Shown here piece after piece: positions 9,217 through 26,615 of a stretch of DNA of 30,915 bases. Under the pieces are notes generated by a model. It was not told the origin of the DNA. It saw nothing but the letters and a program-made list of their open reading frames with translations, and did no database searches. The stretch lies in the IMG/VR virus record IMGVR_UViG_3300010885_013188, positions 1 to 30,915 of that record; one strand, 5' to 3'. Both the position numbers and the translations under genes were made by a program. Every line of letters starts with the position of its first letter. Position 1 is the first letter of the stretch. Source of the DNA: a virus.

Positions 9217-10760
9217 TGGCAACTAAACTAACAAGTAGTGGTAGTGGAAAAATCAAAGATAATTCTATTATTTCTTTTTCTTACTCAGAAGATATTACTT
9301 CTTTAGAACCAAGTTCAATTAATGGTGGATCTAGTCAAGTAACCATTTCTGCTATTGAAGAAACATCTGATGCTGGCCTAATTAACACAAAGTTGATGAT
9401 TAATAATACTGCTAGCCTTACTGATGATGTTTATGGTACTGTGCAGTTTGATGTAAAAAACGTTTCAACCAATGCTGGCGGTGTTGCTACTATTGTTGGT
9501 GATTCTGTGCAAAACAAACTAAATGTTATCAAAACTGCTGCGTCTTTTAATGGAACACTTTCAGCAGCAATAACATATTATTGTGGATTATGTGGAGTTA
9601 CTCCAACAGTTGATTCAGCCCTAAATGGTAGATCGGTAAAATTTATTGGATGGTCTGGAAATGTCTGGGATTATCTTAAAATGCTTTGTTCAGTAATTAC
9701 ATATAATACTACAGATAGAAGTTCTATTGAAATGTATTTTAATGGAACAACAGTAGGATTTAGGCCTGCATCTACAAATACTCTTACTATTGAAGATTAT
9801 CAGTCAGATTTTAATCAAAGCGTTGAAACATTTAATGCGGCAGAAACTATAGATGTTTATTCATATAACACAGAATATAAAAGCAATGCTATTGTTTATG
9901 ACATAAATTATTATGATTCAAATTATAGTAATCCTAAAAAAGCTTTTCTTTCTAGTTTTTCAGATTCTCTTCAAGTTGAAGCTGGTGAAACTATTGTAAA
10001 ACGTTTTACTATTGATGCAACTCTTTCAAGTATAAAACAACCTGATTGTGTTGCAACTATTTCACCATTGCCATATAACCCATCAACTTCTGGTAATGGT
10101 CAATATGTTATTGTTGGTTCAGATAATTTGCCTATACAGCCTGCACAGTGGATTGCTCAAGGTGGAAGTCTTGTTGTGGCTTTAACTGAAAACCCTAATG
10201 AAATACAAATTACTATTACTGCACCAGCAGATAAATCTTTATTGCAAAATACTGGAATAAAATATGGATTTGCACCTTATCGCGTTGGTGTTGAAACTTC
10301 AGGTGGCGGATTTGATTATCCATCATTATATATTGTTGGTACTGGTATGTTTTATAAAAAAATAAAAACAACTTTTATTACCGGCGCAAATTCATCTAAC
10401 GTTTCAGCTGCTGAAATAGATAATATTTTTATTATTGATGATTTTACTTTAGCTAATGCTGGTATGGCTGCAGCACAAGCTGTTTGTGGTCCAAATATTT
10501 ATACTAATGGTTCTTCTGCTTCTGGTTTTGTTTTTGGATCTACTATTGGTAAGTCTTTTAAAAAGAATTCAAATAAATTTAGATTAGATACAGTAGACTT
10601 TAGTGCAAATGGTGTTTCTTGGCATGCAACAGATTCTGCAACTTTTTCTGATTTTGATGCAATAAATTCTGGTAAAACTTTTACACAATTTAATTCTATA
10701 GTAACAACATCAATGTTTTTTAATGAATTTTCTATAATACCATTAACGACTGGAGTATAA
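9216..10760 (+). CDS. Minor tail protein (tail-tip hub candidate)
   Basis: 514 residues, TAATG overlap at both ends. The N-terminal half has alternating strands (KDNSIISFSYSEDITSLEP, VTISAIEE) and a phage hub-like pattern: TYYCGLCGVTP, then GWSGNVWDYLKMLCSVITYN. The C-terminal half is beta-rich. In actinophages a second, larger minor tail protein of this type follows the Dit-like gene and probably forms the central tip (Tal-like). No peptidoglycan-hydrolase motif is visible. The gene is AT-rich with strong preference for A/T third positions. Confidence 0.65.
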   Translation: MATKLTSSGSGKIKDNSIISFSYSEDITSLEPSSINGGSSQVTISAIEETSDAGLINTKLMINNTASLTDDVYGTVQFDVKNVSTNAGGVATIVGDSVQNKLNVIKTAASFNGTLSAAITYYCGLCGVTPTVDSALNGRSVKFIGWSGNVWDYLKMLCSVITYNTTDRSSIEMYFNGTTVGFRPASTNTLTIEDYQSDFNQSVETFNAAETIDVYSYNTEYKSNAIVYDINYYDSNYSNPKKAFLSSFSDSLQVEAGETIVKRFTIDATLSSIKQPDCVATISPLPYNPSTSGNGQYVIVGSDNLPIQPAQWIAQGGSLVVALTENPNEIQITITAPADKSLLQNTGIKYGFAPYRVGVETSGGGFDYPSLYIVGTGMFYKKIKTTFITGANSSNVSAAEIDNIFIIDDFTLANAGMAAAQAVCGPNIYTNGSSASGFVFGSTIGKSFKKNSNKFRLDTVDFSANGVSWHATDSATFSDFDAINSGKTFTQFNSIVTTSMFFNEFSIIPLTTGV

Positions 10761-11392
10761 TGCTTTTTCCTAAAAATAATTTACCTACCGCTTCTTCTCC
10801 TTGGGGTAGGGAAGTTGAAGATCAAATAAAAACTTTAAAAAATATTGTTGAAAAAAATAGTATAAATAATTTTGCAAATAGCGCAACAGATCAAACTAAC
10901 ATAAAAAATATTAATGCTGTTCTTGCAGATCAACTAGAATTAGTAACATATTCTACTGAGTTAGATTTAGATTCAGGTAATGAAGCAACTTTTACTTCAT
11001 CAACGGGTTCTTTTACAGCTGATACGTCAAAACTAGATATTAATATTAATTTAAATAAAGCAAGAAAATTATTAATAAATTATTCTAGTTATTGTATTGC
11101 ACAGGTTGAATTTTTGACTGCTACTGGGGCTAATTATTATGGTTTTACTGCAACAATTTTTGTTGATGGAATTGCAGTAGATTATCAAACTGTAGCTAAA
11201 TATAAATACAAAAATGTTGTTAATGATTTTATTCAAGATTTAGGATCAATAAATGTAACTAAATTGATTCCAGTTTCTGCGGGTTCTCATATAATTTCAG
11301 TTAGAATGGACTATTATGCAATAACTCCCTCTCCAGCATCTACACTTATGGCGACTTCTGGCGATAATCTAATAGTTTCAGTAGTTCAGTAA
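10760..11392 (+). CDS. Minor tail / baseplate protein with beta-sandwich domain
   Basis: 210 residues. Residues about 10-60 are helical (SPWGREVEDQIKTLKNIVEKN, probably trimeric coiled coil). The rest is a beta sandwich with TGANYYGFTATIFVDGIAVDYQ and PVSAGSHIISVRMDYYAI, a build common in tail-fibre or baseplate accessory proteins. A short coiled coil followed by a beta domain suggests a trimer attached to the tip. No enzyme motif is seen, so function is inferred from position and shape. Confidence 0.6.
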   Translation: MLFPKNNLPTASSPWGREVEDQIKTLKNIVEKNSINNFANSATDQTNIKNINAVLADQLELVTYSTELDLDSGNEATFTSSTGSFTADTSKLDININLNKARKLLINYSSYCIAQVEFLTATGANYYGFTATIFVDGIAVDYQTVAKYKYKNVVNDFIQDLGSINVTKLIPVSAGSHIISVRMDYYAITPSPASTLMATSGDNLIVSVVQ

Positions 11393-12134: not shown

Positions 12135-12596
12135 ATGACCAAATATATTGAACCTTTTACTCCTAAGCTTCGTGGCGATGAGTTTGGTAATCTTGCTGCT
12201 TATCGTAATGGCAGACCACACAGAGGCCAAGACTGGCATCCTGCTGAGAAATCACCTATTCATGCCATTACTTCTGGAACTGTTTTCGTAAATGAATGGA
12301 CTGATGTTTTAGGACATATTCTTATCCAGTCTGCTGGTGATGGCTATTGGGTTTTATACGCACATCTAGCTGAAGCTTCTACTCTAAAAAAGGGCGACAA
12401 GATCAAAGTTGGCGAAACTGTAATTGGTCGAGTTGGTGGTGGCAAGAATACGCCTAGCGGGTCTGCCTCAACTGGTGCACACCTTCACCTATCTATCGGT
12501 AAGGCAAATAAAGACTGGGGCAATCCAAACATTCACTTGGCTTCCTATGAATCACTTGTTGATCCATTGAAGCACATCTTAGCTAATAAGGAATAA
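12135..12596 (+). CDS. Endolysin, M23-family metallopeptidase
   Basis: 153 residues, a single catalytic domain. Zinc-site motifs of LytM/M23 peptidases are complete: H29-x3-D33 in PHRGQDWH, H77 in YAHLAE, and H116-x-H118 in TGAHLHLS. It should cut peptide cross-bridges of peptidoglycan. No signal peptide or separate wall-binding domain is present, so release would depend on a holin, which fits the following gene. The size is short for an actinophage lysin, which often carries several domains. Start ATG after TTGGAAAATT. Confidence 0.88.
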   Translation: MTKYIEPFTPKLRGDEFGNLAAYRNGRPHRGQDWHPAEKSPIHAITSGTVFVNEWTDVLGHILIQSAGDGYWVLYAHLAEASTLKKGDKIKVGETVIGRVGGGKNTPSGSASTGAHLHLSIGKANKDWGNPNIHLASYESLVDPLKHILANKE

Positions 12597-12598
12597 AT

Positions 12599-12859
12599 AT
12601 GAAACCTCTTGGTAATGTTCTTCTTCGTGTGCTTGCAACATTTGTTGCTTCTGCTTTAGGTGTTATTGGTGCTGGTAGTCTTGGTGGCGTAGCTCCAGCT
12701 ACCGCTGCAGCTATTGGTGGTATCCTTGCTGTTGCTAAAGTTATTGAGCGTCTATCTTTGGCTTTTCTTGAAGATGGAAAACTTAGCAAAAATGAAATTG
12801 ATGCTGCTTTTCAGCAGTCTGTTCAGCTAAAGAATGTGAAGCCTGAGCCTAAAGACTAA
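12599..12859 (+). CDS. Putative holin
   Basis: 86 residues, two bases after the endolysin stop. Hydrophobic segments at about 8-30 (LLRVLATFVASALGVIGAG) and 33-50, rich in Ala and Gly, are followed by a charged C-terminal tail (FLEDGKLSKNEIDAAFQQS). Size, two membrane segments and place next to the lysin are those of a class II-type holin. It would permeabilise the cytoplasmic membrane at a set time to free the M23 enzyme. The sequence alone cannot prove lysis activity. Confidence 0.7.
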   Translation: MKPLGNVLLRVLATFVASALGVIGAGSLGGVAPATAAAIGGILAVAKVIERLSLAFLEDGKLSKNEIDAAFQQSVQLKNVKPEPKD

Positions 12860-12861
12860 TA

Positions 12862-14148
12862 ATGAAATCTAAGTTTTTTACTTCATTATTTTTTACTTTA
12901 GCGTTTGCTTTTTGGCCGCTAACTGCTGCTAATGCAGAATCTGTTTCTGGCCTTACTCAAGATGTTTATACTTACGTTGAAGGTGCTACCCCAGATAGAA
13001 CTGAGTACGCTCTCTGTAATACAAGTGTTGTTGCAAATATTAACTGGGATGTTGGTGGTGATGTAGTTGCCAACTGCCAGCAAGACTTTGTTCTTATTCA
13101 CTGGTATGGTTATATTACTTTGCCTGTAGATGGTGAGATTACTTTTCAATCTATGGCTGATGATGGCTTTTATCTAGATATCGGTGGTCAAAACGTTATT
13201 GATAACTGGACACTCAAAGGCTGTGGTGGTGGCACAGGTACACACTCATTTGAATCAGGAGTATCACAAAAGGTAGATATCTGGTGGTATGAGTATGGTG
13301 GTGGGGCTTGTAATTTTCTTTATTACACTGATTTATCAACTTTTTATAATTTAGTTCCAGATTCTGTTTGGACTACTGAAGAAGTTGCTATTGTAGTTCC
13401 ACCAGTAATTGTTGAACCGCCAGTAATTGTTGAACCGCCAGTAATTGTTGAACCGCCAGTAATTGTTGAACCGCCAGTAATTGTTGAACCGCCAGTAATT
13501 GTTGAACCACCAGTAATTGTTGAACCACCCATTATTATTGAACCGCCCATTATTATTGAGCCGCCTTTAATAGTTGAACCACCTATTGATCCAGTCGATC
13601 CACCAATTGATCCGGTTATTCCAGATCCATCAATAGACCCTGAGCCATCCATTATTCCTGATTTGCCAGTAGTAATTCCAGAACTTCCTGAAACCCCGCC
13701 TACAGTCCCTACAGAGCCTGAGAGGCCCATTGTAGAACCAGTTGTTGAGCCACCTACAATACAAGAATCACTAAATACTTTGATAGACATTGCACCTTCA
13801 GAGATGACGGATCTACAGGTATCTCAGCTTCAAGAGGCTGCCTATTCCGTGCTTGAAACCTCTGAACAAGGTAGCCCTGAATATGAACAAGCCCTTGATG
13901 CGCTTTATTTGGTGGCACAGGCAGATGACATTGTTATTGACGAGCAACTAGCCAATACTCCTGTTGTTGGTGCGGCTGTAGTTGCATTTGCTAACGCAAT
14001 AAATTTCTTAGGAAACATTGGTTCAGACATTTCACCAAAAGTTCGTGAAGAATCAAAAAAAGTTGTTATTGGTGCAGTTATTGCAGGGCAAATTGCACAA
14101 GTAGCAGGGGCAACGTCATTATCCGCAACTAAGAGAAATGGAAAATAA
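12862..14148 (+). CDS. Secreted PA14-domain protein with proline-repeat stalk
   Basis: 428 residues. A signal peptide covers 1-25 (KSKFF start, hydrophobic core, ANA cut site). Residues about 31-160 match a PA14 domain, a glycan-binding beta barrel: hallmark MADDGFYLDIGGQNVIDNW, plus four Cys (52, 72, 121, 150) that could form disulfides. Residues 180-245 are about ten copies of the hexapeptide (V/I)EPP(V/I)I, followed by a looser Pro/Asp-rich region to about 290. The C-terminal part is helical and ends with a hydrophobic stretch and basic KRNGK, a possible membrane anchor. It sits inside the lysis region. Function is unknown: adhesion, virion surface display or lysis help are possible. Confidence 0.75.
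   Translation: MKSKFFTSLFFTLAFAFWPLTAANAESVSGLTQDVYTYVEGATPDRTEYALCNTSVVANINWDVGGDVVANCQQDFVLIHWYGYITLPVDGEITFQSMADDGFYLDIGGQNVIDNWTLKGCGGGTGTHSFESGVSQKVDIWWYEYGGGACNFLYYTDLSTFYNLVPDSVWTTEEVAIVVPPVIVEPPVIVEPPVIVEPPVIVEPPVIVEPPVIVEPPVIVEPPIIIEPPIIIEPPLIVEPPIDPVDPPIDPVIPDPSIDPEPSIIPDLPVVIPELPETPPTVPTEPERPIVEPVVEPPTIQESLNTLIDIAPSEMTDLQVSQLQEAAYSVLETSEQGSPEYEQALDALYLVAQADDIVIDEQLANTPVVGAAVVAFANAINFLGNIGSDISPKVREESKKVVIGAVIAGQIAQVAGATSLSATKRNGK
13402..13581 (+). repeat. 18-bp coding tandem repeat (10 copies)
   Basis: Ten in-frame units of CCAGTAATTGTTGAACCG run without gaps. Copies 1-5 (13402-13491) are identical. Copies 6-7 differ at the last base, and copies 8-10 diverge (CCCATTATTATTGAACCG and then further). 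Each unit encodes a PVIVEP-type hexapeptide. The gradient from identical to diverged copies suggests recent expansion at the 5' side by slippage or recombination, so copy number may vary between isolates. Confidence 0.95.
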
Positions 14149-14318
14149 TGAAAAATTTTCTAAAAGATATGTTAGAACAAAGTTGGACTTTGCTTGGCCT
14201 TGGAACTGCTTGGCTTGTGCTCGAAGGCACTGCTAAAGAAGTTACTGGAAACCTTATACTTATTACATTAGGTATTTGGGCAGCAACCTATAAACTTAGA
14301 AATCCGAAAGAAAAGTAA
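14148..14318 (+). CDS. Small membrane protein, second holin-like candidate
   Basis: 56 residues. ATG shares one base with the previous stop (TAATG), and the next gene begins two bases after its TAA. It begins MKNFLKDMLEQSW, has hydrophobic segments at about 13-26 (WTLLGLGTAWLVLEG) and 35-48 (NLILITLGIWAATY), and ends with a basic tail (KLRNPKEK). This two-helix hairpin layout with short polar ends fits a small holin or pinholin-like protein. Place between the PA14 gene and another membrane protein supports a lysis role, by inference. Confidence 0.6.
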   Translation: MKNFLKDMLEQSWTLLGLGTAWLVLEGTAKEVTGNLILITLGIWAATYKLRNPKEK

Positions 14319-14319
14319 A

Positions 14320-14568
14320 ATGCCAGATAATTATACAGAATTGTTTGTTGCTATTGGTCGAATAGAGGAAGGTGTTAGACATATGCGTGAATCTATTGAT
14401 CGCGTAGAACGTAAAGTAAACCTTCAAGATGGAAGATTAAAAGATCTTGAACTTGATGTTCAAGAACTAAAAACTCAGAGAAACTCTAAGTCTAATAGCA
14501 TTGCTGTTTGGTTGAGTGTTGCCGCTATTTTAGTTGCAGTTATTACTATTATTGCACAAGGCTTTTAG
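14320..14568 (+). CDS. Coiled-coil protein with C-terminal membrane anchor (XhlA-like)
   Basis: 82 residues. Residues 5-55 are a charged heptad helix (IGRIEEGVRHMRESIDRVER, LKDLELDVQELKTQ), followed by one membrane helix at 61-80 (IAVWLSVAAILVAVITIIAQ). This layout matches XhlA-type lysis accessory proteins, which work with a holin and endolysin. It is the last gene on the + strand. Its end overlaps the end of the converging minus-strand gene by four bases, leaving no room for a separate terminator. Confidence 0.65.
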   Translation: MPDNYTELFVAIGRIEEGVRHMRESIDRVERKVNLQDGRLKDLELDVQELKTQRNSKSNSIAVWLSVAAILVAVITIIAQGF

Positions 14569-15631: not shown

Positions 15632-15967
15632 TTATTGGCGTTCATCAACATATTTATTGTATTTTATGCAACGTTGACAAGTATTTTTTGTTCCCCAACA
15701 TTCGTAATCACAATGTTGGCAATAGAAAAAACCCTCATATTTATCTGTTAAAGATAGCACAGGTAAGCCACAGGAACAAATAAGTATTACTTCTAAAACC
15801 TCATCAGATTCTTCATCGTAAAACTCTACAACTACCTGAGAACTTGCTTGTCCTGAAAACGATTCGAGGTCGTTACGACCCAACTGTTCATTCCATGCTT
15901 TGGTTTGTGCCCTGTTGCTTCTACGAAATAGTTGCTTCCACCATCCATTGTTGGATTTTGAACCCAT
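15632..15967 (-). CDS. Small Cys-rich zinc-ribbon protein overlapping the phosphoesterase gene
   Basis: 111 residues if started at ATG 15967, which has GGGGGG seven bases upstream; TTG at 15982 and a later TTG are alternatives. The C-terminal half carries seven Cys (64, 66, 83, 86, 90, 97, 100) in CxC, CxxC, C, CxxC spacing, probably binding one or two zinc ions. The first 45 residues are read from the same DNA as the phosphoesterase C-terminus, in the -1 frame. The unique part (after SSQVVVEFYDEE) looks like real protein with acidic and aromatic strands. The start is uncertain; function unknown. Confidence 0.6.
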   Translation of the reverse strand: MGSKSNNGWWKQLFRRSNRAQTKAWNEQLGRNDLESFSGQASSQVVVEFYDEESDEVLEVILICSCGLPVLSLTDKYEGFFYCQHCDYECWGTKNTCQRCIKYNKYVDERQ

Positions 15968-17136
15968 AGTGTTGCCCCCCAATCTTCTAAAGCATCGTGA
16001 TGAAAGTGATGTGTTACTAATACATCTGAGTTTCCTACTGCGTGGCGGTTAGCAGCCATTGTTTTATACCAGTTAAAAACTTTGTTACGGATTCCGTTTC
16101 CAGATCCTTTTCCATAAACATCTCCGTGAGTGATGCCGTAAGTCCAACCTTTAATATCAGTTATAATTGACATTTCACGATCTGCTATTTGAAATGAAAC
16201 GTGGTCAAAATTTGGATCATTTTTTAGTCCAAGTTCGGCTATCTCGAATACAAGTAGGTCATCATTATCACCTAACTCAGTTTTGTATCCGTTAATGCGA
16301 TGTTCTCCGTGATTTCCGGGAGCAACTACTACTCTAACTTTTTCAAATAATGGTGCAAGAATGTATAGACCATTGAGTATTGTGGCTACAGTTGTTTTGA
16401 TTTGATCTCTTCTACTCATATCGATACCAAATGATTGTTGTGGATAGATTACACAGCCTTCAATCATATCTCCACCACCAATAATAACTAATTCATTTAG
16501 TTTTCTACCGGTTTTGCGTAGTTCTGTGATTCTTTCAGTTGTGGCTTGCATTGCAGAATCAAATCGTTCTAGGAATTCTTTTGTGCCACCACCTTCTTTT
16601 TTACCTACTTGCCAGTCTGCCCAGTCAAGCACAAAGGTAGATTCAACTCCAGTAAGGTCTTTTGTATTGCGTGTTTTTGATTTGATACCAAGCTCTTTGA
16701 TTAGTTGAATTGGATCAATAGTTTCAACGCCTTGCTTTTTCTTTTGAACAGAGAAAGCATATGAATGTTTCCAAATCTTTCTATCAAGATCTCTTGAATA
16801 GTATTCGCTATGTCTTTCACGAAGAAGTCCAACCATTTCAGTTTCAGACAAGTCATAACCAAATAATTTTAAGATTGAGTCTGGAGAAACATCTGCTAAT
16901 GGCTCATCTAATGCTCCTGTACGGAGTTCACCTAAATCACCATTCCAAATTATTTCTCGCATATCATCTTTGTCAAATTGCTTAGATGATTCATTTTTTG
17001 CACACTTGTTGTTATGTCTGCTTACTGTTGTGCGACTAAAATCGTATCTTTCAGCAATATATCTAGTAGTTTGTTCTACTAGCATTTTTTCTAAATCGGC
17101 ATTAGGTAGCAACGCACATATTTTACAGTTATTCAT
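15832..17136 (-). CDS. Calcineurin-like metallophosphoesterase with N-terminal Cys/HTH domain
   Basis: 434 residues. The N-terminus (about 1-46) has CKIC, a helix-turn-helix-like stretch (YIAERYDFSRTTVSRH) and C45, as in small zinc/HTH modules. From about 165 the metal-site motifs appear in order: DWADWQVGK, IIGGGDMIEG, APGNHGEHR, GITHGDVYG and THHFHHD. These are the DxH-like, GD, GNH and GH blocks of the family. Substrate may be a nucleotide or nucleic acid; the DNA-binding N-terminus favours the latter, by inference. Start ATG follows AAGGCGAG. The 3' end overlaps another gene by 136 bases. Confidence 0.82.
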   Translation of the reverse strand: MNNCKICALLPNADLEKMLVEQTTRYIAERYDFSRTTVSRHNNKCAKNESSKQFDKDDMREIIWNGDLGELRTGALDEPLADVSPDSILKLFGYDLSETEMVGLLRERHSEYYSRDLDRKIWKHSYAFSVQKKKQGVETIDPIQLIKELGIKSKTRNTKDLTGVESTFVLDWADWQVGKKEGGGTKEFLERFDSAMQATTERITELRKTGRKLNELVIIGGGDMIEGCVIYPQQSFGIDMSRRDQIKTTVATILNGLYILAPLFEKVRVVVAPGNHGEHRINGYKTELGDNDDLLVFEIAELGLKNDPNFDHVSFQIADREMSIITDIKGWTYGITHGDVYGKGSGNGIRNKVFNWYKTMAANRHAVGNSDVLVTHHFHHDALEDWGATLWVQNPTMDGGSNYFVEATGHKPKHGMNSWVVTTSNRFQDKQVLR

Positions 17137-25843: not shown

Positions 25844-26377
25844 TTATTTTTGATTTACTACACGCACAAACCGGATTTGGCTTTGCGAATATTCTTTTAA
25901 TGATTCTAAAACTGTTGTTCCATAAAATAGATTAGCATTTATTACCCTATTTTGTCCAGCATACACGCCAGAATGATAAAAATCTGTTCTACCTTTATGG
26001 GCAAAAACAACAATATCTCCCAAAGCCGGCCTAGAAACCCTAATACCAATGTGGCCTTGCTTGTCTGCTGAATGCGGTATGTCTAAACCAAAATGTTTAT
26101 AAACCCATACAACAAGACCTGAACAATCCCAGCCCCTAGTATCAGAGCCAGAAAAAACATAGTTAGTTTTACCTAAACGCATCATCAACAAACCAATAGT
26201 TTTTTTCATTTGAAAAGCATTGCGACTAGGTTTAACCATTTCTAAAAAAGTTTTGTTCCCCAAATGAGTATTTGAGTATTTTGGCTCTGGTACTTTGTTT
26301 GTAGATCCATAGTTGCCACACAGCAACGATGTAGTTAAGGCTGTTGCTAAAAAGATTGCGCCCACTTTGTTATTCAT
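25844..26377 (-). CDS. Secreted NlpC/P60 peptidoglycan hydrolase
   Basis: 177 residues from ATG 26377, chosen because it forms the ATGAATAA overlap and yields a signal peptide (KVGAIFLATALTTSLLCGN, about 1-21; SLLC is a poor lipobox). The catalytic domain covers about 60-175: GWDCSGLVVWVYKHFG with C85, FYHSGVYAG with H135, and RVINAN where N147 takes the third polar place. It should cut D-Glu-diaminopimelate type peptide bonds. Presence among early genes, far from the lysis region, is unusual. An upstream start at 26434 would hide the signal. Confidence 0.82.
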   Translation of the reverse strand: MNNKVGAIFLATALTTSLLCGNYGSTNKVPEPKYSNTHLGNKTFLEMVKPSRNAFQMKKTIGLLMMRLGKTNYVFSGSDTRGWDCSGLVVWVYKHFGLDIPHSADKQGHIGIRVSRPALGDIVVFAHKGRTDFYHSGVYAGQNRVINANLFYGTTVLESLKEYSQSQIRFVRVVNQK

Positions 26378-26615
26378 CGTTAGCCAACTTTGTATCCGCA
26401 ACTTTTGCTTCACGCAAAATCCTACCACCAACATCCGACAAAAACATTAATTTATTTGTATCCTTATCTTCAACGGCTTCTTTGGTCATTATCCTAGTAA
26501 TATTCAAAATTCGTTCTCTCTCCGCAAGCACACCGGTCATAAAGATCTCACGCTGTCCATCAGTCATTTCTTGCCACAGTAATCTAATCTCAATCTCGGT
26601 CATCATCATAATCAT
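26370..26615 (-). CDS. Small hypothetical helical protein
   Basis: 81 residues; the start is uncertain because four ATGs occur in the first five codons (26615, 26609, 26606, 26603). It overlaps the helicase end by up to 26 bases. Sequence is helical and charged (LLWQEMTDGQREIFMTGVLA, then GGRILREAKVADTKLANDE). No known motif, but such proteins beside phage helicases are frequent. The end overlaps the hydrolase start by 8 bases. Confidence 0.55.
   Translation of the reverse strand: MIMMMTEIEIRLLWQEMTDGQREIFMTGVLAERERILNITRIMTKEAVEDKDTNKLMFLSDVGGRILREAKVADTKLANDE

Follow-up and report, generated by a model that had tools for sequence, protein, structure and literature searches.

What a phage might do with a secreted PA14 protein, held at the end of a proline-rich stalk and encoded among its lysis genes, is the question raised by the gene at 12862-14148 of an IMG/VR virus record. 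The record was analysed over its whole length of 30,915 bases (the window). It carries tail genes and lysis genes, and its opposite strand encodes a WhiB protein (PF02467, 2.5e-9), SSB, an SNF2/DEAD helicase, an AAA_24 protein and a DNA methylase. The WhiB gene, which has been used as an actinophage marker (PMC6802176, PMC10202952), indicates an actinobacterial host. Besides the endolysin, another putative hydrolase of the cell wall (NlpC/P60, 2.8e-16), with a hydrophobic segment at its N-terminus, is encoded amid replication genes at 25844-26434 on the minus strand, opposite to the lysis genes. The Pfam search returned no convincing family for two sizeable ORFs, at 15832-17136 (-) and 10760-11392 (+).

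Architecture of the protein and its neighbours

The gene and its surroundings comprise the following features.

12135-12596 (+): M23 peptidase (endolysin), 153 aa; PF01551 at 3.8e-17, PHROG endolysin at 5e-14
12599-12859 (+): holin-like small membrane protein (c3), 86 aa; phrog_443 holin at 2.9e-4
12862-14148 (+): secreted, stalked and anchored protein, 428 aa, ATG start
12862-12939 (+): its signal peptide, residues 1-26 (ANA^ES), from the sequence and the family pattern
12940-13377 (+): its PA14 domain, residues ~27-172, from Pfam, AlphaFold2, Foldseek, profile search and the DDG motif
13378-13740 (+): its proline-rich stalk, residues ~173-293, a repeat array with low pLDDT, extended
13744-14145 (+): its conserved C-terminal module (CTD), residues 295-428, from a 45-member alignment and AlphaFold2
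14148-14318 (+): c14, the partner protein, 56 aa with two hydrophobic segments; start codon overlapping the CTD stop codon (TAATG)
14320-14568 (+): XhlA-like coiled coil with a C-terminal transmembrane (TM) segment, 82 aa; weak PHROG 'hemolysin' match (0.003-0.03)

The preliminary description had proposed a surface-anchored, adhesin-like protein made of a signal peptide, a PA14 domain, a proline-rich stalk and a hydrophobic C-terminus, flanked by a holin-like gene on one side and two small membrane proteins on the other. This layout was borne out by sequence, Pfam and AlphaFold2, the neighbours are as described, and many relatives show the same fold, signal peptide, anchor and synteny. The overall architecture is thus well supported. 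The signal peptide, MKSKFFTSLFFTLAFAFWPLTAANA^ES, has its cleavage site placed by the AxA rule as read from the sequence; a hydrophobic core and an AxA site are present in 138 of the 148 distinct family segments examined. The VEPPVI array of the stalk (13402-13580) has a period of 18 bp, 9.9 copies and 91% matches, figures that place the repeat far beyond chance. The AlphaFold2 model was built with an alignment of 54 relatives and superseded a poor single-sequence model (pLDDT 48).

The head matches PF07691 with an E-value of 2e-9 and 37.8 bits, above the gathering cut-off of 24. Structure prediction gave the PA14 β-sandwich that had been expected, with pLDDT values of 86-97, mostly above 90, over residues ~31-172. 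Among solved structures, Foldseek placed first the PA14 domain of RsgI3 (6qe7, E 9e-11), with a Marinomonas ice-binding adhesin (~7e-8) and yeast Epa/Flo proteins also matched; the probability was 1.00 for 6qe7, 6x8a and 4cov. The RsgI3 domain was also matched by profile search, at 3e-32. Residues D100-D101-G102 form the DDG motif of calcium-dependent PA14 lectins. They are invariant in 25 of 25 homologues, and the motif aligns in the PA14 domains of RsgI3 and of Lap/RTX adhesins upon profile comparison. A carbohydrate-binding head with a wall glycan as its ligand is plausible. RsgI3, the adhesin MpAFP and the Epa/Flo adhesins share the head fold with the phage protein, but are cellular proteins whose architecture outside PA14 is unrelated to it. 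A toxin reading, after the PA14 domains of protective antigen and Vip1, was discarded, as the similarity is restricted to that domain and the remainder consists of stalk and anchor.

The best PHROG match of c3 is phrog_26427 (7.7e-19), labelled 'nuclease'; as the sequence is small, hydrophobic and of membrane type, this label may be wrong. The XhlA-like protein belongs to a cluster found at four loci, in the closest relatives only. Within 4 kb of the CTD gene, a set of 72 loci yielded 61 matches to the endolysin cluster (c1), 56 to c3 and 71 to c14, these being counts of matches, with two in a few loci. CTD genes sit in lysis cassettes and not among tail genes, so that the homologues are not the virion tail proteins that would have spoken against the initial proposal.

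A conserved membrane module with exchangeable heads

A search of IMG/VR yielded 71 relatives, in which the constant part is the final ~130 residues, and at least 279 CTD stretches are present in that database. The CTD consists of a helical membrane-proximal domain with the motif EQGSPEYE, a hydrophobic helix (~392-425) and a basic tail, KRNGK. The 45-member alignment has 18 invariant columns in the CTD, GSPEYE among them, and residues 300-350 are modelled with a pLDDT of ~90. A PA14 ectodomain is found at 82 of 150 CTD loci. The other ectodomains are of unrelated sequence, with coiled-coil or Thr/Pro-rich stalks. The initial emphasis on PA14 holds in so far as the domain is present here, but other ectodomains can take its place; what stays constant throughout the family is the CTD together with its partner c14, which has two TM segments.

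The last helix has a hydropathy above 1.6 (19-residue window) in 91% of 134 distinct CTDs, and the C-terminal tail is net positive in 99% of them. For the helix before it (369-386), just 25% of the members pass 1.6, which makes a second TM segment improbable as a general feature of the family. The protein is predicted to be N-out and C-in, with a single TM segment at the C-terminus. Two other kinds of membrane or wall attachment were considered and rejected. Sortase anchoring does not fit, as the sole LPETP belongs to the stalk and precedes the TM segment by over 100 residues, and the CTD consensus contains no LPXTG. A u-spanin is not indicated either, given the AxA type-I signal, the lack of a lipobox cysteine and a host presumed to be monoderm.

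The CTD matched no Pfam or PHROG family, and nothing was found among 50,697 deposited phage records at E-values up to 1. This collection yielded no CTD although isolated phages of Planktophila have been described (PMC10202952). A scan of 84,980 bacterial and archaeal GTDB genomes with the CTD gave just four matches, in Chloroflexi, of ~40-50 residues each. A host origin was examined by running the profile in three of these Chloroflexi genomes, which left two matches at ~1e-4; the Chloroflexi matches were taken as chance. With no convincing match in host genomes, the CTD gives no sign of being a borrowed host surface protein. The top viral structure matches, UniProt A0A6J5KND8, A0A6J5L694 and A0A6J7WSJ6 (24-41% identity), are named 'PA14 domain containing protein [uncultured Caudovirales phage]', with function and module undescribed; they probably belong to the CTD-protein family, sequences of which would thus already be on deposit. 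The literature search found no description of the protein family and no characterised member. One paper on a PA14-domain phage protein deals with a Bacteroidetes-type secretion signal (PMC7468147). PA14 is known; in the sources searched, the full architecture, the two families (CTD and c14) and the pairing between them have apparently gone undescribed.

The 56-residue c14 protein is smaller than the 60-residue cut-off of the ORF list and was hence absent from it. It follows the CTD gene at all 147 loci that have DNA there; conversely, a CTD lies upstream of c14 at 76 of 78 testable c14 loci. At the two exceptions (L131:1290-4997 and L133:588-4295) a secreted PA14/stalk protein is present with a strongly diverged CTD, in which EQGSPEYE is missing while GADMS, the TM segment and the basic tail are kept. 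As the loci were collected via these genes, the counts inform on the partner and not on the prevalence of the module among phages. The two genes overlap or abut at stop and start in most loci. At ten loci a gap of ~300-420 bases precedes c14, with a staphylococcal-nuclease-like ORF inside it in the annotated cases (L046, L047, L060, L064 and L067). No Pfam or PHROG family, holins included, was matched by c14. It was compared with class II holins, of which two TM segments, a short loop, N-in/C-in topology and membrane permeabilisation are expected; its sequence has two hydrophobic segments, a short EGSAK loop and charged ends, and a holin function is putative. In our view, the gene order and overlaps point to the CTD gene and c14 being a translationally coupled, conserved unit.

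The CTD gene also has unusual apparent starts. In 49 of 131 distinct family genes there is no in-frame ATG, GTG or TTG near the signal peptide; instead, ATT, ATA or ATC (ATH) stands 5-9 nt beyond a strong Shine-Dalgarno sequence. Ten further genes have such an ATH codon with a strong Shine-Dalgarno sequence, their canonical codons having none; one of the ten (L084) has a spacing of 11 nt and an ATG immediately after. Apparent ATH starts thus concern 59 of 131 genes (~45%: 43 ATT, 8 ATA and 8 ATC), examples being L008, L016, L019, L034, L080 and L186 with AGGAG or AAGGAG. By comparison, AGGAG lies 5-9 nt upstream of 0.6% of ATH sites in the family loci, and c14 starts with ATG at 27 of 27 ATH-start loci checked. 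These start sites were inferred from sequence, and the window gene itself has an ATG, 2 nt past the upstream stop, with no Shine-Dalgarno sequence. The pattern suggests a conserved weak initiation of the CTD gene, possibly sensitive to IF3, which represses initiation at AUU/AUC in infC and at GUC in sigR (PMC5472188).

The ectodomain was compared with the remainder of the phage in 553 pairs chosen to have terminases 80-99.5% identical, the pairs being mutually non-independent. The medians were 91% for TerL, 80% for the CTD and 90% for c14, against 27 (identity × coverage) for the ectodomain. In one pair (L023 and L030) the respective values were 98%, 86%, 90% and 29. An ectodomain far more divergent than the backbone, the CTD and c14 has the pattern of a specificity domain mounted on a constant machine, and is as expected of a head that specifies a ligand. 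Each of 23 related records of up to 111 kb has exactly one place with PA14, so that the tail fibres are without the domain.

Possible roles at the host surface

The reading that we favour, tentatively and at somewhat short of even confidence, is that of an accessory lysis protein which is anchored in the membrane, binds glycans and acts together with c14. Two points speak for this reading: in lysis cassettes the protein is invariably accompanied by a two-TM protein, and LysZ, discussed below, offers a precedent. The protein would be exported by the Sec pathway, presumably late in infection, and its C-terminus anchored in the cytoplasmic membrane of the host. The interchangeable head, PA14 in this case, would be borne outward on the stalk, whose reach of up to ~35 nm (118 residues at 0.31 nm, an upper bound) is about the thickness of a monoderm wall. 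The helical module of the CTD and the TM helix would join c14 to form a conserved membrane unit. The head may then grip surface or membrane-anchored glycopolymers of the host while the CTD/c14 unit works at the membrane, so that the envelope yields and progeny are released after the action of holin and endolysin. As the head would stand far from the membrane, wall or surface polymers would suit it better than lipid-anchored ones. Linkage to the cassette is by itself no proof of a role in lysis. Many phages lyse monoderm hosts without a comparable protein, and c14 and c3 are no more than putative holins.

The main rival, which we consider rather unlikely though it ranks next after the favoured reading, is that the anchored head covers the glycan used as receptor by this phage and its kin and thereby blocks superinfection and the sticking of progeny to the lysed cell, in the manner of T5 Llp but by means of a lectin and not a lipoprotein plug. 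Ectodomain swaps between near-identical phages are as expected if receptors vary, and a place in the lysis cassette suits protection from debris. Superinfection-exclusion proteins are described as stopping adsorption to infected cells and to post-lysis fragments, but they are usually expressed early (PMC9586334). Llp of phage T5 is likewise a phage-made surface protein able to guard progeny from adsorption to debris; it differs in being a small lipoprotein, without a lectin domain and outside any lysis-cassette pair. Masking would not explain why c14 and the lysis genes are obligate companions of the protein, and the single PA14 place per record indicates that the domain is not on the tail.

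An accessory lysis role also has to be weighed against sensing. Here the head would respond to an adsorbing phage or to a glycan outside the cell, with the CTD passing the signal on to c14, acting as a class-II-holin-like protein, to set the timing of lysis, on the model of T4 RI/T or of the RsgI polysaccharide sensors. The best matches of the head, by structure and by sequence, are indeed the PA14 domains of RsgI-type anti-sigma factors, and c14 is conserved along with the CTD and coupled to it in translation. Weak initiation, from AUH or from ATG without a Shine-Dalgarno sequence, suggests a low copy number, with which a regulatory role fits better than a bulk mechanical one. Against this, the identity of c14 as a holin and its contact with the CTD are putative, the tail on the cytoplasmic side is short and differs in length between members, and the likeness to RsgI is confined to one domain. 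RsgI moreover has the opposite orientation to that of the phage protein. We regard sensing as quite improbable.

A virion or tail-associated adhesin, suggested by annotated phage tail proteins with PA14-like folds (structure-match ranks 33 and 47), is very improbable in view of the signal peptide of nearly all members, the C-terminal TM segment with its basic tail, and a position in lysis cassettes rather than tail genes that is kept in other genome types, for example beside the terminase.

Relation to known lysis proteins and significance

Phage lysis of Gram-positive hosts is usually pictured as the work of a holin and an endolysin. A third, glycan-targeting component was proposed only recently, with LysZ. 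As reported from McKitterick et al. in PMC13056207, LysZ of the Corynebacterium phages CL31 and Cog is a one-TM protein of 177 residues, N-in/C-out, proposed to act on lipid-anchored glycans, and its deletion results in small plaques. Like LysZ as described there, the phage protein is a lysis-associated actinophage protein with a single TM segment and a large extracytoplasmic part, for which surface glycans are proposed; the CTD gene lies among endolysin and holin-like genes. The orientation is opposite, since the phage protein is predicted to be N-out/C-in, and the same source mentions no PA14, stalk or CTD/c14 pair for LysZ. No match was found in Corynebacterium phages among the 50,697 phage records, LysZ being likened by description only. 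The resemblance would be analogous, one of role and not of homology. In mycobacteriophage cassettes, LysF1a and LysF1b, one with two TM segments (N-in/C-in) and the other with a single TM segment (N-out/C-in), are encoded beside the endolysin (PMC13056207). These proteins differ in being small (~80-88 residues for the two-TM one) and devoid of a large ectodomain, and c14 and the CTD match no PHROG or Pfam family. The family is placed, provisionally, with the accessory membrane proteins of lysis cassettes.

The family is large and apparently undescribed; its partner is strictly conserved, its head can be swapped, and its phages presumably infect freshwater actinobacteria. The apparently conserved AUH starts would make it an unusual phage gene family organised around non-canonical initiation. 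Should a cultured phage with the module be found, it could be tested directly what part surface glycans play in lysis or re-adsorption. A more specific reading, which we hold to be unlikely, is that of a phage-only two-gene membrane unit, CTD protein and c14, that shows exchangeable glycan-binding heads outside the host at lysis under low, IF3-sensitive translation, which in many members would begin at AUU, AUA or AUC. If true, it would constitute a glycan-gated device for lysis or release and a functional class of its own, new among lysis-cassette proteins and widespread in phages that presumably infect freshwater actinobacteria.
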